DNA from: Chlorops oryzae
Lineage: Eukaryota; Arthropoda; Insecta; Diptera; Chloropidae
Length of the DNA stretch: 64,000 nucleotides
Reading direction: 5' to 3'
NCBI GenBank assembly: GCA_020466095.1
Contig: CM035808.1
Span: 81,074,779 to 81,138,778 of the forward strand
Shown: positions 11,679-62,156 of the stretch, piece after piece
Layout: every line of letters begins with the position of its first letter
How positions within the stretch are numbered: the first letter of the stretch is position 1
Position numbers and translations under genes: made by a program
The notes under the pieces: generated by a model
Seen by the model: the letters and a program-made list of their open reading frames with translations, nothing else
The model's database searches: none
Told to the model about the DNA's origin: nothing

Positions 11679-12933
11679 ACAGGTTGGCTGATAAGTCCCC
11701 GGTCTGACACATAGATGGCGTCGCTAGTATTAAATGCATATTATTTTTATATAGTGGCAACCTTTAAATGATTCGTGTCAAAATTTGACGTCTGTAAGTC
11801 AATTAGTTTGTGAGATAGAGCGTCTTTTGTGAAGCAACTTTTGTTATTGTGAAAAAATTGGATAAAATACTGTTTTCTGAAGGGAAAAAATACAGTGGAA
11901 GCAAAAACTTGGCTTGATAATGAGTTTCCGGACTCTGCCCCAGCAAAATCAACGATAATTGATTGGTATCCAAAATTCAAGCGTGGTGAAATGAGCACGG
12001 AGGACGGTGAACGCAGTGGACGCCCGAAAGAGGTGGTTACCAACGAAAACATCAAAAAAATTCACAAAATGATTTTGAATGACCGTAAAATGAAGTTGAT
12101 CGAGATAGCAGAGGCCTTAAAGATATCAAAGGAACGTGTTGGTCATATCATTCATCAATATTTGGATATGAAAAAGCTCTGCGCAAAATGGGTGCCGCGC
12201 GAGCGTGTTGCACGTGTTGATGATTGTGAGCGGTGTTTGCAGCTGTTAACTCGCAATACACCCGAGTTTTTGCGTCGATATGTGACAATGGATGAAACAT
12301 GGCTCTATCACTACACTCCTGAGTCCAATCGACAGTCGGCTGAGTGGACAGCGATCGGTGAACCGTCTCCGAAGCGTGGAAAGACTCAAAAGTCCGCTGG
12401 CAAAGTAATGGCCTCTGTTTTTTGGGATGGGCATGGAATAATTTTTATCGATTATCTTGAGAAGGGAAAAACCATCAACAGTGACTATTATATGTCGTTA
12501 TTGGAGCGTTTGAAGGTCGAAATCGCGGCAAAACGGCCCCATATGAAGAAGAAAAAAGTGTTGTTCCACCAAGACAACGCACCGTGCCACAAGCCATTGA
12601 GAACGATGGCAAAAATTCATGAATTAGGCTTCGAATTGCTTCCCCACCCACCGTATTCTCCAGATCTGGCCCCCAGCGAGATTTTTTTGTTCTCAGACCT
12701 CAAAAGGATGCTCGCAGGGAAGAAAATTGGCTGCAATGAAGAGGTGATCGCCAAAACTGAGGCCTATTTTGAGGCAAAACCGAAGGAGTACTACCAAAAT
12801 AGTATCAAAAAATTGGAACGTCGTTATAATCGTTGTATCGCTCTTGAAGGGAACTATGTTGAATAACAAAAACGAATTTTGACAAAAAAATCTGTTTTTC
12901 TTTGTTAGACCGGGGACTTATCAGCCAACCTGT
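11679..12933 (+). mobile_element. mariner (irritans-type), copy A
   Basis: 1255 bp bounded by 27-bp inverted repeats beginning ACAGGTTGGCTGATAAGTCC (left) with the complementary sequence on the right, each flanked by the TA target dinucleotide. The terminal repeats and protein are those of the irritans subfamily, which contains Himar1. It encodes one transposase pseudogene. Confidence 0.95.
11895..12866 (+). pseudogene. mariner transposase, copy A (inactive)
   Basis: About 323 codons stay open. The paired helix-turn-helix domain comes first (SAPAKSTIIDWYPKFKRGE, then KISKERVGHIIHQYLDM), then the catalytic domain with VTMDETW (first D), HQDNAPCH (second D) and YSPDLAPSEIFLF. The last motif should carry the third Asp of the D,D34D triad, but here it is Glu. 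The interdomain WVPHEL-type linker reads WVPRERVARVDD, so its conserved end is replaced and about five residues are lost. The natural start is deleted and the frame now begins at a GTG. The protein is almost certainly inactive. Otherwise it differs little from copy B. Confidence 0.9.
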
Positions 12934-17765: not shown

Positions 17766-17865
17766 NNNNNNNNNNNNNNNNNNNNNNNNNNNNNNNNNNN
17801 NNNNNNNNNNNNNNNNNNNNNNNNNNNNNNNNNNNNNNNNNNNNNNNNNNNNNNNNNNNNNNNNN
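17766..17865. other. Assembly gap (100 N)
   Basis: Exactly 100 N, a placeholder of unknown true length, placed between the truncated Gypsy element of copy A and the abrupt start of copy B. Confidence 0.99.
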
Positions 17866-18169: not shown

Positions 18170-19448
18170 ACAGGTTGGCTGATAAGTCCCCGGTCTGACA
18201 CATAGATGGCGTCGCTAGTATTAAATGCATATTATTTTTATATAGTGGCATTCTTCAAATGATTCGTGTCAAAATTTGACGTCTGTAATTCAATAAGTTT
18301 GTGAGATAGAGCGTCTTTTGTGAAGCAACTTTTGTTATTGTGAAAAAAATGGAAAAAAAAGGAATTCCGTGTTTTGATAAAATACTGTTTTCTGAAGGGA
18401 AAAAATACAGTGGAAGCAAAAACTTGGCTTGATAATGAGTTTCCGGACTCTGCCCCAGGAAAATCAACAATAATTGATTGGTATGCAAAATTCAAGCGTG
18501 GTGAAATGAGGACGGAGGACGGTGAACGCAGTGGACGCCCGAAAGAGGTGGTTACCAACGAAAACATCAAAAAAATTCACAAAATGATTTTGAATGACCG
18601 TAAAATGAAATTGATCGAGATAGCAGAGGCCTTAAAGATATCAAAGGAACGTGTTGGTCATATCATTCATCAATATTTGGATATGAAAAAGCTCTGTGCA
18701 AAATGGGTGCCGCGCGAGCGTGTTGCACGTGTTGATGATTCTGAGCGGTGTTTGCAGCTGTTAACTCGCAATACACCCGAGTTTTTGCATCGATATGTGA
18801 CAATGGATGAAACATGGCTCTATCACTACACTCCTGAGTCCAATCGACAGTCGGCTGAGTGGACAGCGATCGGTGAACCGTCTCCGAAGCGTGGAAAGAC
18901 TCAAAAGTCCGCTGGCAAAGTAATGGCCTCTGTTTTTTGGGATGGGCATGGAATAATTTTTATCGATTATCTTGAGAAGGGAAAAACCATCAACAGTGAC
19001 TATTATATGTCGTTATTGGAGCGTTTGAAGGTCGAAATCGCGGCAAAACGGCCCCATATGAAGAAGAAAAAAGTGTTGTTCCACCAAGACAACGCACCGT
19101 GCCACAAGCCATTGAGAACGATGGCAAAAATGCATGAATTAAGCTTCGAATTGCTTCCCCACCCACCGTATTCTCCAGATCTGGCCCCCAGCGAGATTTT
19201 CTTGTTCTCAGACCTAAAAAGGATGCTCGCAGGGAAGAAATTTGGCTGCAATGAAGAGGTGATCGCCAAAACTGAGGCCTATTTTGAGGCAAACCCGAAG
19301 GAGTACTACCAAAATGGTATCAAAAAATTGGAAGGTCGTTATAATCGTTGTATCGCTCTTGAAGGGAACTATGTTGAATAATAAAAACTAATTTTGACAA
19401 AAAAATTTGTTTTTCTTTGTTAGACCGGGGACTTATCAGCCAACCTGT
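18170..19448 (+). mobile_element. mariner (irritans-type), copy B
   Basis: 1279 bp with the same 27-bp inverted repeats and TA flanks as copy A. It sits at the same site in the duplicated block, so it was present before the two blocks diverged. Confidence 0.95.
18350..19381 (+). pseudogene. mariner transposase, copy B (inactive)
   Basis: An ATG at 18350 opens the expected N-terminus, but an A8 run just after it shifts the frame. The long frame resumes from about 18374 and runs 335 codons to 19381. It shares with copy A the Asp-to-Glu change at the third catalytic position (APSEIFLF) and the altered linker (WVPRERVARVDD). VTMDETW and HQDNAPCH are intact. It differs from copy A at only a handful of residues, for example APGKS for APAKS and WYAKF for WYPKF. 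Confidence 0.9.
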
Positions 19449-23945: not shown

Positions 23946-24740
23946 TGTTAAAGGTTTTCCTGTGCTTATTCTTAGAAGAAGGATACACCTGAATCCTTTT
24001 TTTCATGTAAAAATAAAAACAAGGACAAACAATAAATTCATTCAATCTCTTTTATTAATTTATAGTTCTCTTGTTTGTTTACATGGATTATTCCTAAGCT
24101 AAACTCCTTCTTACACGCGAAATACTTCCTGGTACTAACTAATACTTAAAGTCCACGTTCTAGTCGCTGTTGCCGCTTGATGAGTACAGCCAATTCGAAT
24201 TGAGACTTTGGAAACTAAAATGCAAGTCCTCTTCCAGATATCGATCATTTGCTTATATAGGGAGAAAGTGTCTAGTCTTCACTTTCACGCTGGGATGTCG
24301 CAATCTGGAAAACCGTTGTTGTGTTGCAATACTATTTCGAAATTGACATTTCGCAACCTCTTGTTGTTGTTGACCCATTTTGATGCTTGAATTCAATATG
24401 TACGAGTTGGCCGAAACTGCAACCCTTGCTGTTTTCTTGTTCGTCATTCTCGCTGTCCGCCGTTCTCGCCTGTCGTCGTTCTCACTCTTTAATGTTCTCG
24501 CTGTTCGTCGCTTTGGCTGTCGTTTACTTATTTATGCCAACGATCATATTACCTTGCGGCTGTTGGCTTCGCCTTTGAGTTTGTTTGTTGTTGTTGTTCT
24601 GGCCTTAAAAGTGAGCTTGCAGTTTTTTCAGCTTTCACTTCAAGGTCTTTGGCTATTTCAATCACAGCTGATTATGTTTTGGTTATGAAGGTCGATCAGA
24701 GGCGATACAGAAGGGTTGTGAGTAGACACGACTCACAACA
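23946..24740 (-). repeat. Gypsy 3' LTR
   Basis: 795 bp, TGTTAAAGG...ACTCACAACA as read on the plus strand. Contains a TATATAAG-type promoter on the minus strand near 24253-24260. A few differences from the 5' LTR are visible. Confidence 0.95.
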
Positions 24741-24754
24741 TCCCTCCCCCTTTC
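24741..24754 (-). other. Polypurine tract of the Gypsy element
   Basis: On the minus strand GAAAGGGGGAGGGA lies directly before the 3' LTR, the primer for plus-strand synthesis. Confidence 0.85.
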
Positions 24755-25596
24755 ATGGAAGTCACAAACATCGTGACGTAGAGAAGATTCGCCAACATCG
24801 TGTAGATCTTACTTCTGGGCAACTTGGACTTTTGCCCCTGCTTTCGTTTCAGAGCCGCTGATGAAAATTTGAGACGATTTTCCTGACTGTCTGAGCTCTG
24901 TTGTTACGCCGGCCTGGTGTTGCTCTTGAAATTTGGTTGCAATTGTTACTGGTGCTGATAAAGAGTGAAGAAAGTTGCGGAGGCAATCGATATTTTTGCT
25001 GATGTATTCTGCTGTCGAGATGATAATGCATTGGTATTTGCGGATGCAATCAATGTTGTTGCTGATGCATTTAACTTTGTTGTTGAGATGATAGACCGAA
25101 GAATTTTGCATTTTTACTAAAGATTAGTCGTTGATTTGGGCTAAGGCAACTGATCCGGTTGCCCCCTTCCCCCCATACGATGACTGCTTTTGTGGGCTTG
25201 TTAATGTGCTTGCTTTAGTTGTTATTCGGAGGAAAATGTATACTAAATAGCCCAGTTGACTGTTGTGGAAATATGTTCTCCAAGGATGTGACGGTGTGTC
25301 GCATGTTTTACTTGTTGTATGCCAAATAAACGTATGTACTGCTGTTGTTGGTGCTGTTATTGTTGATGTGCATTCGATTTCGCTGACTTATTTGCTTATT
25401 TTTACTTAATTAATCTAAGAATGTTATTCCTCTTAACAGTATTTCCCACCACCTTTGCTTATTGATCTATCCATTTCTATTTCTTATTCTTGTTCTTTAT
25501 TATTCTTATTAATTTTTTTTCCAATTTTTAAACTATGCTTCGTTAGCAATATGTTAATTTTTTCTTAATTTTAAATCCATATGTATCAATGATAAT
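24755..25596 (-). other. 3' untranslated region of the Gypsy element
   Basis: No conserved protein. About 24975-25090 holds two imperfect tandem units of about 60 bp rich in GATGCAAT and TTGTTGCTGATG motifs, which keep a 100-codon frame open on the minus strand; I regard that frame as a by-product of the repeat. The rest is AT-rich. Confidence 0.5.
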
Positions 25597-26562
25597 TTAT
25601 TTAAAACTCATATTTTGACTATTTTCGCATTTAGATATTTCGATCTTAAATTTATTTGTGTTATCCATTCTTAGCTTAACAATTTTCCCATTAAGTTCTA
25701 CAGTTCTTGATATTACAGAGCGTTTGCGTTTTTCTTTTTTTTATCGATTTCAGAATTTTATGGAGATATACATTTTCTTCTAAGCTTAAATCTACCGAGT
25801 TTGTGTTATTTTCTTTTAGGCCCCATTTTCTCAGCTGAGTGGCCAAAAATGGTCTTGTTATTCTGCACGTTTTTTTTTAAATATTTCCTTACTGGGTATG
25901 CCATTGTTACCTTCTTCTAACGATATTAACATTTGTTCCGCGAATCTAAGTATAAATAACCCGCAATCTACAAAATTGGTTTGTTGAGGGCAATTAACAT
26001 ATATTGGTTTTAAGTTTTTCGTAAAATTTTTTCCCGTTATGTTACTCAAGATATCAAAAAATTGTCCCATATTTTTTACTATTTCGGATGCGTCATGTGG
26101 CTTCAGAGAGTCCCAAATGTGCATTTGGTCGTCTCTTATTACCATTAACATCCAGTGGTTGCTCTCGCATACTGGAAATATCCAGTTCTCCACCCGTTCC
26201 ACATCAATGTTTTTGTTAAGTTTCTTATTCTCGATAGGGCTATTAAATAATCCGCTTTCGCGGCTGACTTTATTCCCTCTTAAGTAAATGAACTGCAGAT
26301 ATGTACTTTAGTTTCTATTGTCTTATGTTTCTTCATAAGCCAATTCAAAAAAACATTAATGTGGACATCTGCCAACCACTGGTTGTTAATGATTCTTTCG
26401 TAATCATTATGTGTTATATATGTTGTTCTATTTCCTATTTTATAGGAACAAATGTTTGAAAATGTCATTATTAATTAGTATTACCCAATGTTCGTCCACG
26501 TGCACTGATTTCGGTTGTAATGCTCCTTCTTGTTTTTGCCTTCTCCGGTTACCTTCTAAAGA
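25597..26562 (-). pseudogene. Ulp1/SENP-like (C48) cysteine protease, third ORF
   Basis: The frame opens near a CAGTTTTCTTTAG acceptor-like site (about 26562) with a basic segment. Then comes the Ulp1 signature: NDYERIINNQWLADVHINVF (the usual WLND-IN), SNHWMLMVI (catalytic His), MHIWDS (catalytic Asp), YVNCPQQTNFVDCGLFILRF (oxyanion Gln and nucleophile Cys). A basic tail of about 100 residues follows (TRPFLATQLRKWGL to the TAA at 25597). All catalytic residues are present. Frameshifts near 26450, 26290, 25865 and 25740 break this copy. It sits where env lies in related elements. Ulp1 enzymes cleave SUMO-like proteins in host cells; whether it processes Gag or removes SUMO here is unknown. 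A captured host SENP gene fused by chance is the alternative. Confidence 0.8.
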
Positions 26563-26933
26563 AAACTGAGACGAATATTTAATATTAATGTGCGAAAAGT
26601 TATTACGTTCTCTTTCGCTTACTATCTTTTGCTTTAAAAATTTTTTTATTATTTTTTATTAATTGTCAAATTGCATTTTTGCATTTCGAAATTGGCAGGC
26701 CAATAAACTTTTTGATTTTTGAATTCGTTTTGTTGAAATGAAATTATATATATTTTTTTTTTTTTTTGTCAAATTGCTTTTGCATTGTAGTTTTGCACAC
26801 CATTGTTTACAACTGTTCGATTCCGTCAACACATTTGGATCAAAATGATCGCAACAAAAGGTTAAGAAACGCTGACTTAGATTGTTGTGCTTTCGATAAT
26901 TTGATTTGGATGTTTGTTTTGTTGATCGTTAAA

Positions 26934-28062
26934 TTAATTTACTAAATTTCTGTGAAAAGTTTTTTCTTTTCTTTTTATCAACAAACGAACATTTTCTGGC
27001 GATGGTGTAGAAATCACTTCATAAGGGCCCTCCCAAATTGGGGAAAATTTATTTTTCCCATTTTGATTTTTTAGCCAGACTTTATCACCCTTAGAAAACT
27101 TTCGAGATTTGCTTTTTTTGTCATAATATTCTTTTGATTTTTTCTTAGCAGTTTGCTGATTTTTCCTTACTATTTCGTAACTTCTTTGGATTTGATATTT
27201 AAGAATTTTACTGTAATCGTCAACATTGTATAGAGGGGCTGGCTTGTTTTTAAGCTTGATCGGAATTTCGAAATCGAAACCAAAAAGTGTTTTGCTAGGC
27301 GTCTGTTTGGTTGTTGAGTGCACTGTATTATTATGTACGTGCATAGCATGATGAATCCATTCATCCCAATTCGTACCACCTTCATTTACGAAATTTCGCA
27401 CATATTCTGCCATTGGACGGTGGGTTCTTTCGAGAGCCCCGTTAGCTTGCGGGTGGTACGGGGATGTCTGTGATTTTTTAATGCCCAATATTTGGCAAAC
27501 TTCTCTAAAAAGGGCGGAAACGGAATTGGTGCCATTGTCAGTTACCAAAACTTTAGGGATGTTAAATTTAGAAATTATTTCATTAAAAAATGCTCTTGCT
27601 ACTGTTGCTGCTTCTGCATCTGGAATTGCCGTGCATATAAAATATTTAGAAAAATCGTCCAAAAATGTGAGAATGTATTTGTTGTCCCTTGCCGAGACTG
27701 GAAGTGGCCCAACTATGTCCATATATACTTTATCGAAAGGTCTATGAGGTGTGTCTGTAATTGCGATTGGCATTTTTTCAATTAAAGAGCCCTTATTCTT
27801 TTGACAGAGTTTGCATGCGGCTATGTAGTTTTTAACTTGACGTTGCATGCCCTCCCACTTAAATTGTTTTCTTATTCGAAAATATGTTTTCAAAAAACCT
27901 TTATGGCCTCCTATGGGTGTGTCATGGAAGATTTTCAAGACGTTTTCTATGTCTTTTGGATCGGTAAGGACAACTGCCGTGTCTTCATTTTCAAAATTTT
28001 CTGAGTCTACGTTTATTTCGTGTTCTTCTTCTTGAGATTTTGCTTTGGATCGGGTTACAATT
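26934..28062 (-). pseudogene. Gypsy integrase
   Basis: Starts after the RNase H/linker with an HHCC zinc finger (HDTPIGGH, then CKLCQ). The catalytic core has VYMDIVGPL (D), LVTDNGTN (D) and ANGALERTH (E). A C-terminal GPY/F-like part follows (WEGPYEV near the end). The 334 codons from 27938 to 26934 are uninterrupted. The frame joins RT-RNase H upstream once a one-base change in an A10 run near 28065 is allowed for. It inserts the cDNA into host DNA, here with a 4-bp duplication. Confidence 0.9.
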
Positions 28063-29442
28063 GAAATTTTTTTTTTCAGAAATTGGTAGTCTACTTAAGG
28101 CATCAGCATTGAGATTATTTTTCCCCGGTTTGTAGCAAATTTCGAAATCATATTCTAAAAGTTTTAAACGAAAACGTCTTAGTCTGGTGTCTTGATCTTT
28201 TAAATTAGCTATTCCCTTAAGGGGCTTATGGTCCGTATAGATTTTGAAATGTTTGCCTAAAAGATATGTTCTAAAATTTTTTACTGCCCAAACTATTGCT
28301 AAAAATTCTTTCTCTATCGTTGAGTAACGCCTCTCAGTTGCACTAAGGGATCTACTTGCGTAATATATCGGAAGATCTTGCCCTGGTTCCCCTTGAGATA
28401 GGACTGCTCCTAGTGCCTCGTTACTAGCATCTGTTGTTAAAATAAAAAGTTTTTCAAAATTGGGATATTGAAGAATTGGGGGACTGGTAACCGCTTTTTT
28501 TTTTAGCTGTTCCATGGCTTTTTGACATTCAGGATTCCATTTAAATTTTTCCTCTTTTCTTAATAATTTTGTTAAGGGCAAAGAAATTTTTGCTGCTTCG
28601 GGTATGAATTTTCTATAATAATTTATTAACCCTAGAAATGATTGCAATTCCTTAATATTTTTAGGGGGCTGTATATTTTTAACGCATTCTACTTTTTCGG
28701 GATCTGGTAACACTCCTGCCTCTGAGCATTTATGGCCTAAATAAACTACTTCTCTTTTTAAAAATTGACATTTTTCCGTCTGTAATTTCAAATTATTCGC
28801 TCTCAAAACATCTAATACTTTTCTCAGTCGTATTTCGTGTGATTCTAAATTTCTAGCATAAATGACAATGTCATCAAGATAAACAAAACAATCAATTCCC
28901 TGTAAACCGGTTAGTATGCTATTCATTATGCGCTGAAAAGTCGCTGGTGCTCCTGTCAGCCCGAACGGCATTCTGGAAAATTCGAAATGTCCTAACCCGG
29001 TACTAAAGGCTGCTTTGGCTCTATCTTTTTTGTCAACCAAAACTTGATGATATCCACTAGCCAAGTCTAATGTCGAAAAGTAACGACTACATCCTAACTG
29101 GTCCAAAATTTCATCTATTCTGGGAATAGGAAAAACCTGTTTGAGAGTGATTTCGTTCAATTTTCTAAAATCGACTACTAGTCTCCATCTTTTCTCACCA
29201 TCTACTCCTGCCTTTTTGGGGACTAATATGATCGGGGTATTCCAAGGTGATTTGCTTGGAGTGATAATGCCGTCTTGCAGCATCTTATCTACCTGTGAGT
29301 TAATTTCTTTTTTGTGGTGTTCGGGTAATCTATATTGTCTGGTATTAATTGGAGAATGACCTGCTATGGTCGGTATTTCGTGTTCTAACACTGTAGTGTA
29401 GGAAAGTTGATCTCCTGGTTAATGAAAAACATCTGAATAATC
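28063..29442 (-). pseudogene. Gypsy reverse transcriptase and RNase H
   Basis: RT motifs in order: YRLPEHHKKEI, LVVDFRKLNEIT, LDLASGYHQV, SRMPFGLTGAPATF and the active-site FVYLDDIVIYA. The connection SFLGLINYYRKFIP follows, then RNase H with LTTDAS, STIEKEFLAIVWAV, YTDHKPL and NADALSRLP. The region is open for 466 codons from 29391. Two stops lie just upstream (near 29443 and 29418), and a homopolymer frameshift lies at the end before the integrase. It makes the cDNA copy. Confidence 0.9.
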
Positions 29443-30483
29443 TTAAAAAATTTTTTGCATTGAAATTTTTTCCTCTTGATTAAGGGTGTTATCTAGTTTT
29501 TTGGTTTCTAACAAGAGGTTATAACGAATATCTGTATTAGTGCATTTATTTAACTGATTAATAGTTGGACACTTTAATTCTTGAAAATTTTCTATTGGTT
29601 CGTAATCCAATGGTACTTCGCCTAATCTAATAGCCTCATTATTCGTATTTAAAATTGGTATATACCCTTTTCCATTTATTATCCTAGTCAGTGTGCCTCC
29701 TACAAAAACATTTGGCATTACTTCTTTCTTCTGTACGACTACATCCCCTGATAATTCTTCTGCATAAATCGCCACTATTCTCTTTTCCCTAGCTTGGACT
29801 GTGACTGTTTTCACAATACAAATCCTATTGCTATCGTCGGAAAAAACAAGCGGAAGTGATGCAATTTGCTCATTGTTATTGAAAAAGGATATTTCTTTAT
29901 TGATATTATCAATTACTGACCTATTTCAGAGTTCATCCCTTCCCAGTAAGCCATCTGCTGGAATTTGGCTTTCTTTTGGTAGCACATGTAACTTAAATTT
30001 TAATGCTGGGTTACTAAAGTGTAGAAGGGGAATGGTTCCTATTGTACGAACGTTACCCCCGAAAGCTCCCGACAATTGTGTGCTTTCGTTCTCATCTATT
30101 TCGACATTACTCTTCAATGCTTCCCTTTTTACTAAGCTTGTGTCGGCACCAGTGTCTACTAACAACGTTATTTGCTCGTTTATAGCTTGTCCACATGGAA
30201 ATACTATGAACGAGTCATTTAATGCTGAGCTAGCCACCTTGTCATTATTTGCTTGAGTGCGGTACTTGAATTCTTTAAGATTTCCACTATATTCTCTGAT
30301 CCATCTGCCTATGAACAAAGTTTTTTCCCACAAAAATGTGAATAAGAGTAACACAAAAGATAAGATCAATTCGATTCTATCGTCGTTTTTATTCTTATTA
30401 CCTTGAATTTTTGTTTCGGATACAATTTGAGTTTGGTTCGGAGTTACCTTTCTCGCAAAGTTCTTTTCAACCAAAACATGCAC
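29443..30483 (-). pseudogene. Gypsy aspartic protease and RT-proximal linker
   Basis: The aspartic protease has the active site LLVDTGADTSLVK and the flap-side motif DGLLGRDEL. Right after this a TGA at 29926-29928 interrupts the frame, which then continues for about 160 residues to the RT (NINKEISFFNNNEQIASLPL to QKIF). A short hydrophobic run (LILSFVLLLFTFLW) precedes the protease. There is no ATG at the start; the preceding stop (TAA at 30484-30486) is followed directly by GTG. Confidence 0.85.
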
Positions 30484-30828
30484 TTATTGATTATTCTTTG
30501 ATTCTTTAACTAATGGTTCTTCGCTTTCATAATAATGAACGACGACTTCGTCGTTGAAATTCACTTTCTTTGAATTTCTTAGTTTCAAGGAAATTTCATC
30601 TTTGCTCTCTATCCTTTTTATTTTCTTCTTAATAATCTGGTTGTTAAGGTCATCTAAGAAGATTTTATTTATGTCCAGTTCCTTGAACTCTTCTTGGGGG
30701 TTTTTTAATTTAACTACTTTTTCTCCTTTTTCTTTAAGTTCATATGGTTTATCTATTTCTTCTTCCCCCGGAACTATACTTGGCCTATGAGTTTTCGAAT
30801 TCATTTTGGCTTTCCGGTCTATTGGCAT
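30484..30828 (-). CDS. N-terminal charged segment of Gypsy pol
   Basis: 114 residues, Lys/Glu-rich, no known domain. Its ATG (30828) overlaps the gag stop in ATGCCAATAG, so it lies in the -1 frame relative to gag and could be reached by frameshifting or by reinitiation. It ends at a TAA that separates it from the protease. Confidence 0.6.
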   Translation of the reverse strand: MPIDRKAKMNSKTHRPSIVPGEEEIDKPYELKEKGEKVVKLKNPQEEFKELDINKIFLDDLNNQIIKKKIKRIESKDEISLKLRNSKKVNFNDEVVVHYYESEEPLVKESKNNQ

Positions 30829-32984
30829 TGACCGGGCCGCATTGAGTTTCCCTGGCTCCTATTTTCCTGGGGTGCACTATTACAATACCGTGCTATGTGA
30901 CCGAAATTTGAGCATTTGAAACATTGCATCCCTGTTGGCTGACTATTATTTGTCATATTCTCTCTAGGTTGACTACTCGAATTTTGCGCTCTCCCAGGAG
31001 TATTTCCATTATTGTTATAATTTTGAGATTGGTTATTATTTTGTGTTCTAAACGGGTCGAAATTTTGATTTAGCATACTATTTTGTGGTTCAAAAGGATG
31101 ATTTGGAGAATGATGGTAACTTTTCGTTCTAATACCGCTTTCAATATTCCCTGTACCAGGCTGCTGATCCTGTTGAGCATTCAAAATTGGTTTGCAAAAT
31201 TTATTGGATTCATGTCCTCGTGTTTTGCATATATTGCAGAATATGTCCTTTAATCGACTGAAACAGTTTTTTTCTAAATGACCTCGTTTGTTGCAATGTG
31301 TGCAGGTCACGGGTTCACTTCTAGCTTCTATAGTTTTTCGACCACAATTTGCTGTTTGTTCGTGCCCATATTCGAAGCAAATATTGCAATAAGGAGTATT
31401 TCTCCTGAGTTGGCAAACATCTCTAGTATGACCCACAGTATTGCAAAAAGAGCAGGGGATTGTTTGAAATTGGGCTGGTTGATTTATGAAGTTATTTGCA
31501 TGAAATTGTCTACTATTGCAATGACGATCTTCTGCATCTTCGGCTATTTTTACTAAAAACGATAGAGGCTTATCTAAATGTCCTTCGAGGCGGAGTTGCA
31601 TATATTTATCTTTTAGTCCAAAAATAAATTTATTTTTTGCCATATAGCACTCGTTGAGTGCTGATACCGCCTCAGACTCGTTCCAGGACGCTTTAATCAT
31701 TCGTTCCGCTTCATTCAGTAAAACTTCTATCCTTCGCCCAAATTCTGAGGCCCTTTCATTTGCATGCTCTACGGTGCTTTCCATTTCTGCCCTTATCACT
31801 TCTAAGCTTTTCTGTTTTAGGAATTGTTTTTTAATGAAATTCCCCAATCCATCTACNNNNNNNNNNNNNNNNNNNNNNNNNNNNNNNNNNNNNNNNNNNN
31901 NNNNNNNNNNNNNNNNNNNNNNNNNNNNNNNNNNNNNNNNNNNNNNNNNNNNNNNNGCTCCCGAACACTAGCTCATTTGTTTTTATAAACGCCTCTCCTG
32001 ACAGTCGTTGTTTTACGCACTTTATTAGTTCGCCAGGAGCTATATTTTGTGAAATGCTTTTAAGAAGTTCTAGTCCTGTGACGAACTTCGCTACCTCTGA
32101 CCTTAATTCTAGCCCATTTTCGCCTGAAAAGCAAGGCACTAAACTCACTACTTTCTTCATTACTTCATCTGCGGGAGGTGGAATTGCCATTGTCACTGTT
32201 ACCGTAGGAACTATTAATGTTTGATTATTCGTTTCCTGATTTGGCCTGTTTTCTGTATTTACCCCTACTGAAATATTCTTTTTCGCGGGGGGTGGAAGCA
32301 GTCTTAAAAAAGTTGGATTATTTTGAAGGAGTATTTTTGGACTATTTGTGTGGTCAATATTTACTTTTTCGTTATTAATTGAACTATTTTCTTTATTTTT
32401 GTCTCCTAGTGAACTTGTAGGCGGGGGTGGAGGAGGAGGTGGAGCGGGTTTTGGACTCGTTTTGCTGCTGCTGGGGCTTGGAACTTGTGTGTTCCTAAAT
32501 TCCCTTTTAAAATTTTCTATTTCTTCTTTCAGCCATCTTATTTCTTCCTCTCGCTCTCTAAGGGTTTCCTTGTCTCTCTCGACCTGGTCTGCTAGCTTTT
32601 CCCCTGCTGCGTTGCTTAATGCTTTTTAAAGATCCTCGTTTCTCTTATCGGACTTCTCAATTAATAACCTGCTCGCGTCAATTTGGTTCTTTATTTTTTT
32701 GCGGTCTTTTTTTTTAGGCAATTTATTGTTTCTTCTAACTGTTGGACTTTTTTCTTATTTGTCTCGCTCTGCTTACTCAATGGACCTCTTACTTTGTCTA
32801 TAAGAAAGGATGCCTCCCCAAGTTTCGAAAATTGGCCTAACACTATTTGATCTTTAATTAACTGCGAAACCTCTCGCCCTAAATCTGCTTCTTTAAGTAA
32901 TTCTCTTGCTGTCTCTAAAACTACTGCAGTATCGATTTCTGATTGTTTAATTGTTTGTCTAAGTGCTTCCAATTCTCCCTCCAT
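30819..32984 (-). pseudogene. Gypsy Gag with five zinc knuckles
   Basis: From the ATG at 32984: a long helical, coiled-coil-like N-terminus (EGELEALRQTIKQSEI), a second coiled coil, a Pro-rich linker (PAPPPPPPPP near 32430), a capsid-like part (VVSLVPCFSGENGLELRSEV), the N gap, the capsid C-terminal part, then five knuckles between about 31445 and 30870: CSFCNTVGHTRDVC, CNICFEYGHEQTANC, CTHCNKRGHLEKNC, CNICKTRGHESNKFC, CFKCSNFGHIARYC. Knuckles 1, 3 and 5 are CX2CX4HX4C; 2 and 4 have X5. An A9-run frameshift near 32715 and a TAA at 32627-32629 break it. Gag coats and packages the element RNA. One or two knuckles are usual. Confidence 0.9.
31857..31956. other. Assembly gap (100 N)
   Basis: Placeholder gap inside the Gag capsid region. 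The true number of missing residues is unknown. Confidence 0.99.
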
Positions 32985-33570
32985 ATGACTCAATTAAATA
33001 CGGATTTACTCCGTTCATTGTTCATTGCAAATAACAAAAAAAAAATTTCATTCGCATCTAACTACACCAAATGCCAGCCTACTCAATCAAAAATAGCAAA
33101 AATAACCAAACAGTAAATAAACTCTTCGCACATAAATTTAAATTCACGTACTCACCATGTTTTGTTTTGTTCTGCTTTTCTTTAATTTCTGGGTCTGCTT
33201 TGTTTATTTGTTTGTGTTTATTTAAAGAAATTTGTCGAATTTTTTGTTTGTGCGAATGTTTGAAACTCAACTTATTTAATTAAATTACTCTCTCAACCAC
33301 AAATAGCTTCTTCATAAAAATATTGACAAACTGTTTGTAACAATTTGTCCGTCAATATTTAATGTTCTTTGGTCATCACAACTTTTACAAGGTAGCCTTA
33401 CGAAAAATTTTATTAGACTGGGCGGTTATGACGCATCAACTTTTAAAACCGAAACCAGTTCCGCTTCAGTCAGTTTATTATTTTTTTCGCAATTCACCCT
33501 ACAAAATGTTGAAATAGCCCAAATGAAACTATTTGACTGTGTAGATTCGAATCCAACTATGAATAGTTGA

Positions 33571-42973: not shown

Positions 42974-43753
42974 TTACAGTGATCTAAATGATTGAGGCCA
43001 GAAAACGATTCGTTCAGTAAACGTGTAGTCGTCTCCATGAGTCACCATGGACTGACCAAAAAGTAGTTCATAGGGAGGCCTTTCAATGCTCTGATGGACA
43101 CTGTTACGAAGTGCTGAGTTAATGCTGCAAAGGTATGCGTCCCAGTCTCGTTGGTCTCTTTTTACGAATGCGCGCAAGGCCTGGTTGACCGACCGATTAA
43201 CCCGTTCTGAGACATTTGCTTGTGGAGAATACCGAGCTGTATAGACATGTTTGACGCCATTACGCCTTAGAACTGACTCAAACTCAGTACTACGAAACTG
43301 ACTTCCGTTATCCGATAAGAAAGTTTCAGGTACTTCAAAACAATCAAATATAGATTTTTGTAGAAAATCCACAATAGTGCTTGAAACGAATCTTTTAAGC
43401 GGATGTAAGAATATGAATTTTGAAAAGTGATCGAGTACGATCAGTATTCCCATGTCACCCCGTTTAGATCTGGGTAAAGGTCCTATCAAGTCGATATGCA
43501 ATTTTTGGAACGGGCGTTCAGTTTCTACTAACTGTCCCATTTATGGCCTTAGTATCTGATTTGGAGCTTTCGTTGTTTGACAGATTTCACAATCAGCAAT
43601 ATACGCCTTGACATCGGTTACTAGCCCAGGCCAGTAGAAATACTTGCGTACATTTAAACCGTTTTTGCAATTCCTCCATGAACTGAGTGCAACGAGCCAT
43701 GAGCAGGGAAAATTACGCTGTGACGAAGTAGTTTTGGGGCAAGTAACTTCCAA
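42974..43753 (-). pseudogene. Gypsy integrase (decayed element)
   Basis: A zinc-finger region (WPGLVTDVKAYIADCEICQ) is followed by a TAA and then a 188-codon frame with the catalytic residues: HIDLIGPLPRSKRGD (D), LSDNGSQF (D), ANVSERVNRS (E). The end after about residue 180 is missing. It overlaps the RNase H frame's tail by a frameshift near 43740. Confidence 0.85.
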
Positions 43754-44874
43754 TTACAGGATTCGTCTTTGTTACCCTTAGAAAACTCGGTCCGCTTGTA
43801 TACAAATTTATCCATGATCTGACCTCTACGTGCTCTTCACTATCAAAGCTGTTTGAGGATAAATCTATTGCTGGAAGTTTTTCAACGTCTTTTGCATTCA
43901 CGGCATCATCGGATTCGTAAACCCGCGACAAAGCGTCAGCAACTACGTTTTCACTACCTTTACGGTGTGTTATTTTGAAATTATGTGCTTGAAGTTTTAA
44001 TGCCCATCGGGCTAATCTATCAGAGAGGTCCTTCTGGGTCATAAGCCATTTATTGCTGGCACGATCTGTAATCACACAGAATTCTTGACCCTCTATGTAT
44101 GGTCGAAATTTCTTAGTGGCCAAGATAACCGCTAAACATTCGAGCACTGTGACTGTGTAGTTATGTTCAGCTTTGTTGAGTTTATACGAGAAAAACGCAA
44201 TCGGCCTCTCCGTACCTTCGGCGTCTAGTTGTGCCAAAACGCCTCCCACACCGTGATTACTAGCATAGCAATTGACAATGAACGGTTTCTCATCGTCCGG
44301 GTTGACTAAAACAGGGGCAGTCCTTAGTAGTTTTTTTAACTTATCAAACGATGTCTGAGCATTTTCATTCCAAGTGAATGATTTTCGTTTCGACAACAGC
44401 TCAGTCAAGTGGAATGTTGCAGACAAGTAATCGCTCAAAAATCGCCTATACCAGCCAACCATGCCAAGAAATCTCCACACTTGTCGTACAGACATTGGCA
44501 CTGGATATTCCAGGATTGCCTTTACTTTGTCCTCATCTACTTTGAGTTCACCTTGCCCTACTATAAAACCCAAATATTTTACTTTCTTAAGGCCAAAACT
44601 ACTATTTGCCACATTGATCGTTAGACCAGCTTTTCGTAGATTCGATGCTACTTCAAGGAGATGAGACAAATGCTCTTCAAAGTTATGTGATACAACCAAC
44701 AATTCATCCAGATAAACAAGGACATGTGTCTTTAGAAAATATGGAATGACCTTGTCCATAAGGCGACACATAGTTTGAGGCGCACTGCACAAACCAAATG
44801 GCATACGGACGTATTGGGCGAGAAGATTCGTCTAACTTAATTTGCCAAAAGGCATCTTTTAAGTCGATTTTAGA
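43713..44874 (-). pseudogene. Gypsy RT and RNase H, downstream part
   Basis: After the mariner the RT resumes with SKIDLKDAFWQIKLDESSR; a frameshift near 44815 leads to MPFGLCSAPQTMCRLMDKV. LVYLDELLV stands where YLDD is expected, so the second catalytic Asp is Glu. Then comes FLGMVGWYRRFLSDY and RNase H with VITDRASNKWL (DHAS-type, D kept) and NVVADALSR. 363 codons are open. Confidence 0.85.
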
Positions 44875-44876
44875 TA

Positions 44877-46169
44877 TTAGGTGTTGTAAAAAGAAATCCA
44901 TTATTTTTCCAATAGATGGCGTTATTTATCTGCATCTCGCGTTGTATAAGTCCGATCGTGTTCCGCTAGGAGGCATTAGAAAGATGACAGTTTCTACTAA
45001 AAAAGCTTTTTTTGACACTTTTTTGATTGATTGAATTCAGTTTTGTTTGAGAGCTTGTCAAAGATGGACATCAGCAAAAGAGAAAATTCGCCACATTATT
45101 ACAGTTTTTCTTCGATAAGGGAGAAAACGCAAGCCAGGCGGCTGAAAATGTGAATAGCGTTTATGGACCTGATACTGTAACAGCCAATCATGCGCAATTT
45201 TGGTTTCGTCGAATCCGTTCCGGTAACTTCGATGTCAAGGATGCACCACGCACTGGAAGGCCAATTGTCGAAAATGTCGATAAAATCATGGAAATTATCG
45301 AGTCCGACCGTCATGTTAGCACTGTTTCGATTGCAAAAGAGCTAAAGATTGCACAAAAAACCGTTTGGAACCATTTGAATAAGGCTGTGATACACAAAGA
45401 AGCTCGATGTATGGGTGCCACACGAGTTAACGCAAAAAAACCTCATAGACCGAATTTCCATCTGCGAATCGCTGCTGAACCGCAACAAAATCGACCCATT
45501 TCTGAAGCGGTTGGTGACTGGTGATGAAAAGTGGGTAACTTACGACAACGTCAAGCGAAAACGGTCGTGGTCGAAACACGGTGAACCGGCGGAAACGGTG
45601 GCCAAGCCAGGATTGACGGCCAGGAAGGTTTTGCTGTGTGTTTGGAGGGATTGGCAGGGAATTATCTACTATGAGCTGCTCCCATACGGCAAAACTCTTA
45701 ACTCGGAACTCTACTGTCAACAATTAGTCCGTCTGAAGGAAACAATCGCCCATAAGCGGCCAGCTTTGGCCAATAGGAGAGGAATTGTGTTCCATCAGGA
45801 CAACGCCAGGCCACACACATCGATAGTGACTCGCCAGAAGCTCCGGGAGTTTGGTTGGGAGGTTCTTCTGCATCCACCTTATAGTCCGGACCTGGCACCA
45901 AGTGATTACCATCTGTTCCTGTCCATGGCGAACAATTTTGCTGGTGAAACATTCGCTTCAAGAGAGGCTTCTGAAATTCGACTGTCTCAATTTTTTGCTA
46001 ATAGGAACGAGGGGTTCTATGAGAGAGGCATAATGAAATTACCTTTAAAATGGCAACAAGTTATCGAACAAAACGGCGCATATTTGACCTAAATCGGGTC
46101 ATTCTAACTATCTTAAATAAAGCCCTCAATTTAATGCAAAAATAATGGATTTCTTTTTACTACACCTAA
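44877..46169 (+). mobile_element. mariner (cecropia-like)
   Basis: 1293 bp. Terminal inverted repeats of about 32 bp begin TTAGGTGTTGTAAAAAG (left) and TTAGGTGTAGTAAAAAG (right, opposite strand). TA flanks are at 44875-44876 and 46170-46171. It is inserted into the RT of the minus-strand Gypsy relic. Confidence 0.95.
45064..46092 (+). pseudogene. mariner transposase (cecropia-like)
   Basis: The ATG at 45064 opens a broken N-terminus (frame changes near 45085-45110). Then come the HTH domain (VKDAPRTGRP, IAKELKIAQKTVWNHLNKA), a one-base frameshift near 45395 at the WVPHEL-type linker, and 225 codons of catalytic domain with VTGDEKW (D), HQDNARPH (D) and YSPDLAPSDYHLF (D). The D,D34D triad is complete, unlike the two irritans-type copies. 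It ends NGAYLT at 46092. N-terminal frameshifts make it non-functional. Confidence 0.9.
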
Positions 46170-48198: not shown

Positions 48199-49190
48199 CT
48201 AAAGTCGGTCAAGCCCGACTTTGAAATACCCAGCGTCCCGACATTATGAGCGCACAATTTTTTGCTTCTCTATTTGTGGGCGTGGCAGTGGGAGGGGAAC
48301 ATACATTATTTCCCTACACCTTTCATTCGCCTTGGTGAACCCATGTTGCGAATTTGAAGCTTCTACGCCTTTTACTTTGGAAGTTACGAAAAATCTTCAT
48401 TTGTGGGCGTCGCAGTGGAAGGGCAACATAAATTATTCCCCTACACCTTTCATTCGCCTTGGTGAACCCATGTTGCGAATTTGAAGCTTCTACGCCTTTT
48501 ACTTCGGAAGTTACGAAAAATCTTCATTTGTGGGCGTGGCAGTGGGAGGGCAATATAAATTATTTCCCTACACCTTTCATTCGCCTTGGTGAACCTATGT
48601 TGCGAATTTGACGCTTCCACGCCTTTTACTTCGGAAGTTACGAAAAATCTTCATTTGTGGGCGTGGCAGTGGGCGGGCCATATAAAATTTTTTCCTACAC
48701 CTTTCATTCGCCTTAATGAACCTATGTTGCGAATTTGAAGCTTCGACGCCTTTTACTTTGGAAGTTACGAAAAATCTTTATTTGTGGGCGTGGCAGTGGG
48801 AGGCAAACATTAAATATTTCCTTACACCTTTTATTTGCCTTGGTGAACCTATGTTGCGAATTTGAAGTTTCTACGCCTTTTACTTCGGAAAATACGAAAA
48901 ACCTTCATTTTTGGGCGTGGCAGTGGGCGGGCCGCATAAAATGTTTTCCTACACCTTTCATTCGCCTTGGTGAACCTATGTTGCGAATTTGAAGCTTCTA
49001 CGCCTTTTACTTCGGAAGTAATGAAAATTCTCTATTTGTAGGCGTGGCAGTGGGCGGGCTACATAAATTTTAGTTCCTACACCTTTCATTTGCCTTGGTC
49101 AAGCTATGCTGCGAATTTGAAGCTTCTACGCCTTTTACTTCACAAGTTACGATAAGCCCTTATTTTTGGGCTTATTTGTGGGCGTGGCTC
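48199..49190. repeat. 127-bp satellite-like tandem array
   Basis: Unit landmark TTGTGGGCGTGGCAGTGG recurs at 48274, 48401, 48528, 48655, 48782, 48909, 49036 and, decayed, 49163: exactly 127 bp each time. Each unit also has CCTACACCTTTCATTCGCC, GTTGCGAATTTGAAG and CGCCTTTTACTTCGGAAG. Some frames stay open across two units, but these are not genes. Confidence 0.95.
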
Positions 49191-49456
49191 GAGGAGGGCG
49201 GCGTCCATTTTTTGCCAGGATATCTCCCTTTTCGTAGTTTACCAGCAAACCAAATATCAATGGAATGTGTTGAGTGGTTCGCAAGTTACAAGCATTTTAT
49301 TGAAAACACAATATATTCATTTGTGGGGGTGGCAGTGGGCGGATATCTCTTATTTTTACTTAGGATCATACTCGGACCCCGATATACATGTGCGCCAAAT
49401 TTCGACTTCATTGGTTCAGCCGTTTCGGAGGAGATCCGACCACGGACGGACGGACA
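49191..49456. repeat. End of the 127-bp repeat family's host element
   Basis: Contains one more GTGGGGGTGGCAGTGGGCGG and ends in TTGGTTCAGCCGTTTCGGAG and a CGGA microsatellite. Sequences of the TTCAGCCGTTTCGGAG type are common near the ends of dispersed insect repeats. The gap follows. Confidence 0.5.
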
Positions 49457-49556
49457 NNNNNNNNNNNNNNNNNNNNNNNNNNNNNNNNNNNNNNNNNNNN
49501 NNNNNNNNNNNNNNNNNNNNNNNNNNNNNNNNNNNNNNNNNNNNNNNNNNNNNNNN
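49457..49556. other. Assembly gap (100 N)
   Basis: Placeholder gap that removes the 5' end of the piggyBac element. Confidence 0.99.
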
Positions 49557-50874
49557 CTTGAGGATATCTTTCGAGACGAACAAACATCAACATCAACAAA
49601 AACAAGTTCACCGTGTAAAAAACGACTACGTAAGGTGCAGCCAAAAGCATCAAATATTGAATTGCCTCCAGGAAATAAAGCAACAACATTCGAATGGGTA
49701 AAAGACGATGCTCTATCTCTTATACCAATATTTCCTGATGAAAATTACGCCGACTGCCGTGGTATTCTGCCTCATCAGCAGTTTGAAAAGTTTTTTGATA
49801 ACGATCTTCTAACTCACATTAGTGAACAATCTGCACTGTATGCGATCGGAATGAATAAGCCTAATCCCAATATAACAGTCGAATGCATTTATCGGCATAT
49901 TAATTATAACAGGCTACAACTATCACGCTTGTTTTAGAAATTTGTGGAGCCAAGATGAAGACATTCGCAACAATCTCGTTAGCAACACCATGCGTCGAAG
50001 TAGATTTCAAGAAATCCTACAATTTCTTTACTTCGAAGACAACTCTAAAGCATCTTCTCGAGAAGGCCTTAATCCCGATAAGATGTGGAAATTACGTCCA
50101 ATCACCGACCATCTCAAAGCCAAAATGATTGAAAATTTTCATGCCGAGCAAAATCTCTCATATGATGAAAGCATGATCGCTTATTTTGGTAAGCATGGAT
50201 GCAAGCAGTATATAAAAGGAAAACCGTTGCGATTTGGCTTCAAAGTTTGGTCCCTTTGTACTCCATCAGGCTATATGGTTAACTTTGAAATATATCAAGG
50301 AAAGAATCCTCGTTCAAACAAGGAGTATGAAGCGAAATTTGGAAAATGTGCCGCTCCTTTGGTGAGCATGATCGATGATTTTCCCGATACGTTGAAAGCA
50401 TTGCCTTTTTCGTTTTATTTTGACAATCTTTTTACGAGTTATCCTTTATTGGAATATTTAAAATCATGCGGGTATAATGCAACATGAACCATTCGCGAAA
50501 ATCGTATTCCAGCAAGCTGTCCACTGGCACATAAAAAACATTTATTAACTATGCAAAGAGGTCATTCCGAATCGATAATGGTAAAGCGCACGGGCATTCG
50601 CTTGGTGAAGTGGAAGGACAATAATATTGTGTGTATATTGTCCACCACCTTTGGTGAAAATCCCAAATCAATGGCGCAGCGATATTCGAAGGAGACCAGA
50701 AGCAAGATAAAAGTACCCCGTCCTTGCGCCATCACGGAGTATAACAAATATATGTATGGAGTCGATCGTTTCGACCAAAATGTGGCCCAATATCGAATCG
50801 CGTATAAAGGGAAAAAGTGGTGGTCGAGCATTTTCACTTGGCTAGTTGATGCATGTATTCAAAATGCTTGGCAG
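49557..50874 (+). pseudogene. piggyBac transposase, main part
   Basis: DDE_Tnp_1_7-type protein. N-terminal acidic/Ser-rich part first, then FDNDLLTHISEQSALYAIGM; a frameshift near 49886 leads to NYHACFRNLWSQDEDIRN. RRSRFQEILQFLYFEDN follows, with the catalytic Asp residues in LSYDESMIAYFG, FYFDNLFTSYPL and YMYGVDRFDQN. A TGA near 50485 replaces a Gly codon before TIRENRIP. The gene is cut after AWQ by an LTR retrotransposon and resumes in frame at 54762. It is closest to PGBD-like piggyBacs, whose other end is seen on the opposite strand at 62250-62503. Confidence 0.9.
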
Positions 50875-57207: not shown

Positions 57208-57453
57208 TGTAGTGTAATGTTGATTTTATAATTATATTTGATTATAAATTTATTTATACTACAATAAAAGATAATTATTATTTACAAATTTGAAATTAAA
57301 GAACTGAGCTTATCTTTAAACATCCGCTGTGTCCGACAACCAGAGAGGAAGGAAAAAAATGAAGAAACGATGATCAGCTGTTATTTGGAAAATGTTAAGA
57401 ACGAGCGTTGCCACCTCGTATTATTTTAAAGCTACTGTGACGTTGTCGCTACA
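57208..57453 (-). repeat. CsRn1-like 3' LTR
   Basis: 246 bp, TGTAGTGTAATG...GTTGTCGCTACA as read on the plus strand. Same sequence as 61357-61602. Confidence 0.97.
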
Positions 57454-60400: not shown

Positions 60401-60601
60401 CACATCAGCACCGGAATCTATGAGGAACCTGTATTTCGTTTTAGTGTCACGAACAAACAGGCGACAAATTTCATAGCGGATCTCATCCGTCACCAAAGAT
60501 GAGACGCTCTCTAGTTTTCCGATTTTTGATTTTGCTTGGAGAAAGTGCAAGGCTGGACGCATTTTTGTGCCTTCTCCTTGTATTTGTAATGGTACCAGCA
60601 A
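57449..60601 (-). CDS. pol: CsRn1-like Gypsy Pol (protease, RT, RNase H, integrase)
   Basis: 1050 codons with no break. Aspartic protease RFLIDSGADVSVFP near residue 60. RT with VCGDYRQLNSRT, FSKIDIVKAFHHIPM, FEFLRMPFGLRNAAPSF and the active site VYAYFDDFLIA (YFDD rather than YLDD). RNase H with LKVDASDFAIGG, YDRELLAIYMTVKHF, FTDHKPLVYAF and ADALSRI. Integrase with a zinc finger (HGLAHTGPKTTSKLI, CLTCQRAK), NVHIDIIGPLPPS (D), VTDQGRQF (D) and NGLIERWHRTFK (E), then a GPYKVL tail. It overlaps gag by 91 nt in the -1 frame and has no ATG of its own, so a -1 frameshift during translation is expected. The C-terminus reaches into the 3' LTR by a few bases. Confidence 0.95.
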   Translation of the reverse strand: MLVPLQIQGEGTKMRPALHFLQAKSKIGKLESVSSLVTDEIRYEICRLFVRDTKTKYRFLIDSGADVSVFPVKKKNHQRQQIDSFTLYAANGTPIKTFGKQTLILDLGLKRKLKWNFIIAEVDKPLIGSDFIAHYGLLIDIKNSHIIDPSTGTKCKGFRIYDTQTTETITTNPLKSLLEEYNDLNNANFRTNVSHKVEHYIETTEGASVFAKPRRLSPEKFDTCKKSFDELQKLGICRPSNSNWASPIHMTLKSNGQWRVCGDYRQLNSRTIPDRYAVPNIHDFSNYLNGKTIFSKIDIVKAFHHIPMAKDSIKKTAVTTPFGNFEFLRMPFGLRNAAPSFQRFIDEVIKRLKGVYAYFDDFLIASESQEEHVQHLKKLFQRFREYGLTTNMAKCVFCTKEIDFLGYTINQNGIKPLQNRIQVLKDYSLPKTIKDLKRFLGMINFYRKFMPKAAASQALLHGIHKQNVKNDKTPIAWSNELKEAFTKCKQSLADSTLLSFPVPGAQTALKVDASDFAIGGVLEQNINGEWKPLGFFSKKLDKAQVNYSAYDRELLAIYMTVKHFKYFLEGREFIIFTDHKPLVYAFRQRPEKASPRQLRHLDLISQFSTDIRHISGKENITADALSRINAINSPSPINFKKLEAEQKCDLELQNLLNDDKSNLKLKLLTFPNSEAKIYCDVSNNVIRPYLTISFRKTIFNIIHGLAHTGPKTTSKLIRQKYVWKSICKDIAAWAKTCLTCQRAKISRHTKSPIQQFQPPKQRFSNVHIDIIGPLPPSNDYRYVFTCIDRFTKWPEAIPLKDISAEQVANAFLNTWISRFGVPSIVVTDQGRQFESRLFRTLANRLGIKIVHTTAYHPQSNGLIERWHRTFKAALRCHKSNEWTGALPLVLLGLRAKIIEKCDCSIAEMVYGTPIKLPGDLCESNNNETSDINWIQSFRQRMSNIQPAVTTHNTNNKNFINKELSKCSFVFVRTDAVKRPLQHPYEGPYKVLSKSAKVFKLNMEGKEKFVSIDRLKPAATTNLEENEEQETKPGSKKRVRFALSITGGGVL

Positions 60602-62056: not shown

Positions 62057-62156
62057 NNNNNNNNNNNNNNNNNNNNNNNNNNNNNNNNNNNNNNNNNNNN
62101 NNNNNNNNNNNNNNNNNNNNNNNNNNNNNNNNNNNNNNNNNNNNNNNNNNNNNNNN
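62057..62156. other. Assembly gap (100 N)
   Basis: Placeholder between the Penelope remnant and the opposite-strand piggyBac fragment. Confidence 0.99.

Follow-up and report, generated by a model that had tools for sequence, protein, structure and literature searches.

Ulp1/C48 protease domains occur in several kinds of mobile element. They are present in Ginger1 and Mutator transposons (PMC2836005) and in Cryptons (PMC3212892), and the NeSL and Utopia non-LTR retrotransposons of nematodes have an N-terminal Ulp1-like protease (PMC4640811). The elements described here resemble Ginger1, Mutator-like elements and Cryptons in being mobile and carrying a C48 domain, but in these DNA transposons the domain lies at the C-terminus of the transposase (Ginger1) or accompanies a recombinase (Crypton), whereas here an LTR retroelement encodes it in an ORF of its own. 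NeSL and Utopia are likewise retrotransposons with an Ulp1-like protease, but are of the non-LTR type and have it N-terminally in an element protein. Accessory genes and env of fly LTR elements are treated in PMC11952523 and PMC12992720. In the former, MDG1-group LTR elements of flies encode accessory proteins (sORF1/sORF2) beyond gag and pol, as do the LTR elements studied here, but there the ORFs are small and precede gag (in some lepidopteran elements they follow pol), and the accessory protein is a fusogen-like membrane protein, neither a protease nor a phosphatase; the words "protease" and "SUMO" are absent from PMC11952523, and "Ulp" from PMC12992720. Insect errantiviruses have the same LTR-gag-pol-env layout, 4-bp duplication and Baculo_F env as our element or its relatives, a likeness drawn from layout and env, but the clade studied here has an extra SENP-like ORF beside env and often a tyrosine phosphatase (PTP) domain fused to pol. 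The element C48 shares the catalytic His-Asp-Gln-Cys set and domain order of the SENP/Ulp1 proteases SENP7, SENP1 and SENP2 (profile E=2.4e-34 to SENP7), but is retroelement-borne and compact, with a basic C-terminal tail missing from the host-type SENP. In a literature search with subscription papers and Repbase notes outside its scope, no Gypsy element turned up that had been described as encoding a SENP-like protease or a PTP fused to pol.

The window analysed here is a stretch of 64,000 nucleotides from the fly Chlorops oryzae (assembly GCA_020466095.1, contig CM035808.1, positions 81,074,779 to 81,138,778), and has a Ty3/Gypsy element on its minus strand. Pairwise LTR alignment located the 5' LTR at 34384-33587 (798 bp) and the 3' LTR at 24740-23946 (795 bp), with termini starting TGTTGTGA and ending CTTTAACA, repeat blocks 96-98% identical and a 4-bp duplication, CTAG, flanking both sides of the element. 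Directly 3' of the 5' LTR lies TTGGCGCAGCCGG, which we take to be a tRNA-Ser-type primer binding site (PBS) resembling, presumably, that of 17.6/297-type elements; directly before the 3' LTR lies the polypurine tract (PPT) AAAGGGGGAGGGA, at the end of a 3' untranslated part (24741..25599). The element has the TG..CA LTR ends, the duplication of 4-6 bp, the PBS and the PPT of Ty3/Gypsy elements, and also their order of pol domains in Pfam matches, namely protease, reverse transcriptase (RT), RNase H and integrase. Its gag (30822..32993), recognized from reading frames and zinc-knuckle-like motifs with weak zinc-finger matches, is broken into pieces at 32993-32694, 32625-31957 and 31847-30822, the latter two being separated by a 100-base assembly gap (31857-31956). 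In pol, the retroviral aspartic protease part (29929..30483; PF00077, E=1e-5) has in-frame stops at both ends and is followed by RT and RNase H (27994..29418; PF00078, E=9e-35, and PF17917, E=9.5e-37) and by the integrase (26937..28094; PF00665, E=3.9e-18, and PF17921, E=7.7e-17), directly after which the frame stops. This copy is damaged, with frame breaks and in-frame stops in gag and pol, and its C48 gene is broken too. Between pol and C48 lies a short spacer (26470..26936) where relatives have PTP and/or env; neither was matched there at E<=1e-4, and a baculovirus-F-type env is absent from the window copy.

The original prediction of a C48-type domain after the integrase and before the PPT, on the same strand, was borne out. 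The Peptidase_C48 domain is encoded, like gag and pol, on the minus strand, between the integrase (ending at 26937) and the PPT and 3' LTR (24740). Its C-terminal half, a 149-residue piece (26307-25861) with the motifs NHW, WDS, CPQQ and VDCG, gave 42.7 bits (E=7.5e-11) in an HMM search with PF02902, against a curated cut-off of 20.7, and matched PDB chains of Ulp1, SENP7, SENP5 and SENP1 (best E=3.2e-6). The N-terminal half, a 64-residue piece (26474-26283) with WLADVHIN and the first ATG, was 45% identical over 89 residues to the start of the relatives' C48 protein (lineage B, residues 1-88; E=3.7e-16); in a PDB search it aligned in order, weakly (E=0.17), with SENP2 residues 33-78 and was outscored by unrelated G-protein constructs (E=0.0017 and 0.094). 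The C-terminal basic tail (25600..25876) lies in shifted frames and matches the tail conserved in relatives. Catalytic His, Asp and Cys and the oxyanion Gln are all present. The claim that every landmark and a basic tail are encoded thus holds for the motifs and the tail but not for a single open frame: the domain is complete from end to end, yet divided between two frames, with the tail in further ones. A frame of 149 codons or longer appeared in 25 of 1000 Markov-resampled sequences, so that the open frame is unconvincing by itself and the evidence lies in homology and the many relatives; a reading as a chance ORF is ruled out by this homology and by the family copies. We rejected a 71-residue frame (26655-26443) as part of the protease, as it is a separate, overlapping upstream frame in siblings. 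A single-sequence structure model of the 149-residue piece had a mean pLDDT of 50.4 and a pTM of 0.39. Protein database searches gave no match at E<=0.01 with this piece (11 candidates) or with the whole C48 region as one frame with X at stops (136 candidates), and PHROGs and NCBIfam profiles added nothing useful.

Searching the genome (442,144,510 bases) with the C48 region of the window gave 50 match pieces from the best 40 of 72 candidates, 20 of which, the window included, were family C48 copies with 88-100% identity, shorter pieces touching C48 being excluded. Among the matches listed, the pol end and the C48 region were side by side, as in the window, in 6 of the 20 copies, five matching over all 1334 bases and one over 1-1204; in the other 14, they were 3.1-3.6 kb (eight copies), 4.9 kb (two), 1.0 kb (one) or 8.9 kb (one) apart, one copy had no listed pol end and one was side by side with a split of about 0.9 kb. 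When the window integrase was used as the query (best 120 of 6154 candidates), 11 copies at least 95% identical to it, itself included, were present among the matches listed, and 9 of them had a family C48 region downstream, as expected if other copies carry C48 between integrase and PPT. Three further integrase rows (84-85%) were assigned to the family only for the family C48 that follows them. The distance to C48 in the 12 family integrase rows that have it was 1.0-1.3 kb in four (the short type), 2.3 kb in one and 4.2-6.1 kb in seven.

The original prediction also had C48 "in the env position", and this did not hold. In an env search of the genome (best 85 of 1537 candidates), 5 of the 20 family copies had, among the matches listed, an env match whose end lies roughly 0.4-0.5 kb ahead of the point where C48 should begin, with no stop inside the match in four of them. 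Because these five longer copies have env before C48, the window copy is the env-less short form of an env-bearing family. We therefore reject a replacement of env by C48: both genes occur in relatives, C48 precedes env in another lineage, and the window copy has lost env. In addition, one open 195-residue frame spans most or all of the C48 domain in a sibling copy (L039), so unbroken C48 domains exist in the window family.

A PF02902 search of the genome (best 150 of 513 candidates) gave at least 150 matches, 149 besides one host-type SENP, and 125 of the 150 had no internal stop. Around the best match (L001/L028, E=3e-45), none of the genes of the window element was matched within 9.5 kb, and this locus looks, from its sequence, like the host's SENP1/Ulp1-type gene. 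We opened 27 of the 149 non-host loci, which are not a random sample, as 19 came mostly from the upper list and 8 were chosen for other open-frame types. A Gypsy integrase lay upstream of C48 on the same strand in 23 of the 27. The four exceptions were L013, with RT upstream and identical LTRs around C48 without a matching duplication; L023, with gag alone upstream and C48 between LTRs whose termini are the same as those of the window element, with a GGTT duplication; and L025 and L030, where neighbours are on the opposite strand. The last two (L025:5618-6259 and L030:5429-6265) form a C48 subgroup, D, on the strand opposite to neighbouring Gypsy gag, pol or env, and may represent a second arrangement or a separate element.

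The remaining loci fall into three lineages. Lineage A (ten loci: L009-L015, L017, L019 and L024) has the order gag-pol-C48, is 40-46% (RT) and 24-34% (integrase) identical to the window element where matched, and gave no PTP or env match within the 9.5 kb read. In lineage C (four loci: L029, L033, L034 and L035), the order is gag-pol-C48-env, identities are 66-76% for RT and 64-73% for integrase, and no PTP was matched. Lineage B, that of the window (eleven loci: L016, L018, L020-L023, L026, L027, L031, L032 and L036), has the order pol-env-C48 and integrases 79-83% identical to that of the window (none in L023); PTP is present at the end of pol in 8 of the 11 loci, and 10 have an env match, be it complete or a remnant, always before C48. 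In L034, RT, integrase, C48 and env are repeated in a tandem array with a unit of about 3.97 kb (the next unit being shorter) and pieces about 97-98% alike. The Pfam C48 profile matched the window element and relatives from A, B, C and D at E=7.5e-11 to 3.6e-21, with PF02902 scores of 73-76 bits in L020, L012 and L022 and 60-63 bits in L029, L030, L031 and L033. Env is open in relatives, and all four of the relatives' env frames tested matched Baculo_F (PF12259; E=5.9e-7 to 7.5e-10). A listed C48 lay within 9 kb downstream in 26 of 120 window-lineage integrase rows (best 120 of 6154), and downstream of 19 of 85 env rows (14 from the PF02902 list and 5 of the window family), while 37 of the 85 had PTP upstream and no C48 downstream among the matches listed; the 26/120 and the 37/85 count against a universal presence of C48 in the window's lineage. 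No relatives were revealed when viral contigs were scanned with the C48, integrase and RT domains and with the C48 alignment, or a separate collection of genome contigs with C48.

A phosphatase joined to pol is, after the protease, another enzyme unexpected in an LTR element, and is as surprising as the C48 gene. A single 1297-residue frame in L031 comprises RT, RNase H, integrase and a PTP domain (PF00102, E=2.3e-71), and in L020 the frame is open from RNase H to PTP (E=1.1e-72). In both (L031:4859-8749, minus strand, and L020:3-2474), Gypsy pol continues in frame, at its C-terminus, into a classical PTP domain; the closest PDB matches of this domain are receptor-type, namely PTPRA, PTPRS and LAR. 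The active-site signature HCx5R reads HCSAGVGR in five of the eight PTP loci and HCKAGINR in two (L022 and L027); L032 was read from its better match piece alone, which ends short of the motif. The Cys and Arg are kept in L022 and L027 with changed surroundings, and their PTP may, judging from this sequence, be altered in activity. A PTP search of the genome gave 149 rows (147 scored of 560 candidates). In 82 of the best 120 of 6154 integrase rows, a listed PTP begins 0.68-1.28 kb downstream in the same orientation; 15 of the 120, one with a stop inside the PTP match, have a listed PTP and lie in open frames of at least 1513 residues. For the 14 window-family integrase rows, there was no PTP among the matches listed, the 1.6-2.1 kb before env, where a divergent PTP may lie, being outside the stretches read; three of these rows belong to open frames of 1325 residues. 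A listed PTP lay 1.4-5.2 kb upstream of C48, on the same strand, in 19 of 149 C48 rows, compared with a mean of 0.12 and a maximum of 2 in 200 trials of random placement on three large contigs.

We found that C48 is resident in several lineages of this Ty3/Gypsy clade and is SENP-like with a private basic tail. The catalytic His, Asp, Gln and Cys are invariant in all 12 aligned element sequences; L034, outside this alignment, carries Tyr where the catalytic Cys is expected. Open copies are compact, about 280-340 residues from stop to stop, and rows extending far enough have in common a basic linker and, at the terminus, a short motif, both missing from the host-type SENP. Besides SENP7, the element profile matched SENP1 (7.4e-29), SENP2 (1.3e-28) and, weakly, SENP8 (5.9e-6) in the PDB, and no adenain chain was present among the 22 PDB sequences at E<=0.01. 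The domain had been predicted to be of SUMO/adenain type, of which the SENP/Ulp1 half is the one that these matches support. The element alignment also matched 18 SENP-type proteins of unknown context in a protein database. In a tree of 20 C48 sequences, the host SENP and five database SENPs formed one group (100/100) opposite all element C48s; B, C and D were joined (98/98), as were C and B (84/80). An integrase tree (22 sequences) placed lineage A apart from B and C (100/100). The trees, which include one host SENP and five database SENPs, fit one early capture of C48 in the clade; a second capture, from another host SENP of SENP6/7 type, is possible. The window integrase (27938-26937) grouped with L031/L032 (81/81) and the window C48 piece (26307-25861), with under half of the columns, with L022/L023 (91/92), making it uncertain whether C48 descended together with pol. 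This misfit may reflect fast change, a short piece or an exchange of C48 between families.

Selection on C48 was estimated from open frames by the Nei-Gojobori method. Six sequences of lineage A gave 15 pairs, which share sequences; dN/dS was 0.12-0.21 in the 11 of them with dS above 0.3, between subfamilies (dS 0.36-1.33), and 0.29-0.86 in the other four, which are recent. In lineage B, it was 0.31-0.89 in ten recent pairs and 0.94 for L022-L023; in wider pairs of lineages B and C, synonymous sites were at or close to saturation. Between the lineage-A subfamilies, C48 is under purifying selection, in agreement with the predicted dN/dS below 1, and no constraint is visible among recent copies (0.29-0.94 within subfamilies). 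In the window family, C48 of the window and L040 differ by no synonymous and six nonsynonymous changes over 115 codons; this comparison excluded L039, whose frame is not open throughout, and L037 and L038 lie outside it. C48 evolves fast relative to the other genes, with a dN 2.7-6.4 times that of integrase in all 10 pairs with both genes (for L020-L031, 0.112 in integrase, 0.279 in PTP and 0.521 in C48) and 1.3-2.5 times that of env over four pairs with env. The many subfamilies in one genome allow such evolutionary tests to be made at once.

In Drosophila ovarian somatic cells, according to PMC13195609, Panx-dependent, piRNA-guided transcriptional silencing needs SUMO, SUMO on Panx being required for the transcriptional silencing of transposons, and endogenous deSUMOylases cut SUMO from Panx fusions. 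As SUMO on Panx is needed for silencing, an element with its own SENP-like enzyme could loosen its own silencing. Judging from its family and catalytic residues, C48 would most likely be a deSUMOylase, and a protease activity directed at SUMO or ubiquitin-like proteins is probable. It would be translated as a separate ORF starting with an ATG, perhaps on an RNA spliced like that of env, and would take SUMO off silencing factors in the host nucleus at places of element transcription, so that SUMO-dependent transcriptional silencing is weakened. Host proteins are likely substrates, because the catalytic set is full and the element already has an aspartic protease of its own, and a conflict with the host would agree with the rapid change of C48 under purifying selection overall. 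An active enzyme of this kind would represent a transposon counter-defence against a chromatin pathway. In the window's lineage, the protease and the pol-fused PTP may constitute two host-modifying enzymes, the PTP perhaps being delivered with the particle. That counter-silencing is the main role of C48 is a tentative and somewhat doubtful proposal; the best explanation of the whole, a decayed, env-less copy from a family whose resident C48 is a putative deSUMOylase acting against SUMO-dependent silencing, seems to us to have about an even chance. A still broader picture, of an insect retrovirus clade with a built-in counter-defence, in which an early captured deSUMOylase acting against Panx-type factors moved relative to env in conflict with the host and, in one lineage, a PTP joined to pol travels with the particle, is speculative and, taken as a whole, rather unlikely.

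Other roles can be weighed against this one. Large DNA viruses and Polintons have cysteine proteases, of C48 type or related to it, that act in maturation, and C48 adjoins env in lineages B and C, so that it might be a second maturation protease, cleaving Gag, Pol or Env in the manner of adenain or the Polinton protease. We consider this improbable, given that SENP7, SENP1 and SENP2 are the best structural relatives and that lineage A keeps C48 with no env in the stretches read; processing of Gag, which had been suggested for C48, is unlikely because the element encodes a retroviral aspartic protease. Alternatively, the targets of C48 and PTP might be, instead of chromatin silencing, signalling or membrane proteins in the donor cell or the recipient, with the effect of aiding the passage of env-carrying particles from cell to cell. 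A receptor-class PTP fused to pol would share a precursor with the pol enzymes, the Baculo_F-type env genes are open in relatives, and accessory ORFs serving cell-to-cell transfer are described for other LTR elements of flies in PMC11952523; however, lineage A has C48 with neither env nor PTP matched in the stretches read, so its C48 would not depend on either, and this role appears unlikely.

Many C48 copies are broken, and the dN/dS of recent copies, together with the window-type pair that has only nonsynonymous differences, is what a functionless captured passenger spread by copying would give. This is very improbable, however, in view of the low dN/dS over the 11 between-subfamily pairs (which share sequences), the catalytic residues kept across lineages with integrases about 30% identical, and the 125 of 150 listed matches without stops; C48 is almost certainly a resident, selected gene of the clade. 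An insertion in a single copy, or a nested Ginger, Mutator or Crypton transposon, might be imagined from the Ulp1/C48 genes that such DNA transposons carry (PMC2836005 and PMC3212892). The family-wide occurrence of C48, downstream of nine of the eleven closest listed integrases, refutes this and leaves it hardly credible; LTRs enclose the gene, which is found next to pol in two further lineages as well and is flanked by no long terminal inverted repeats in 24700-27000, where the longest pair (31 nt, 81% complementary) falls within the gene.

Other elements were also observed in the window. Two very similar open frames of 323 and 335 residues (11895-12866 and 18374-19381) look, we presume, like mariner-type transposases. 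Further Gypsy elements are present at 57449-61329 and 42974-44919, one with a 1050-residue pol frame and a gag-like frame and one in pieces. Frames at 49095-50487, which we take to be a piggyBac-type transposase, are interrupted by an assembly gap. Runs of exactly 100 N occur at 17766-17865, 31857-31956, 49457-49556 and 62057-62156, the last three starting 17,600 and 12,600 bases apart, a pattern resembling fixed-size scaffolding gaps.
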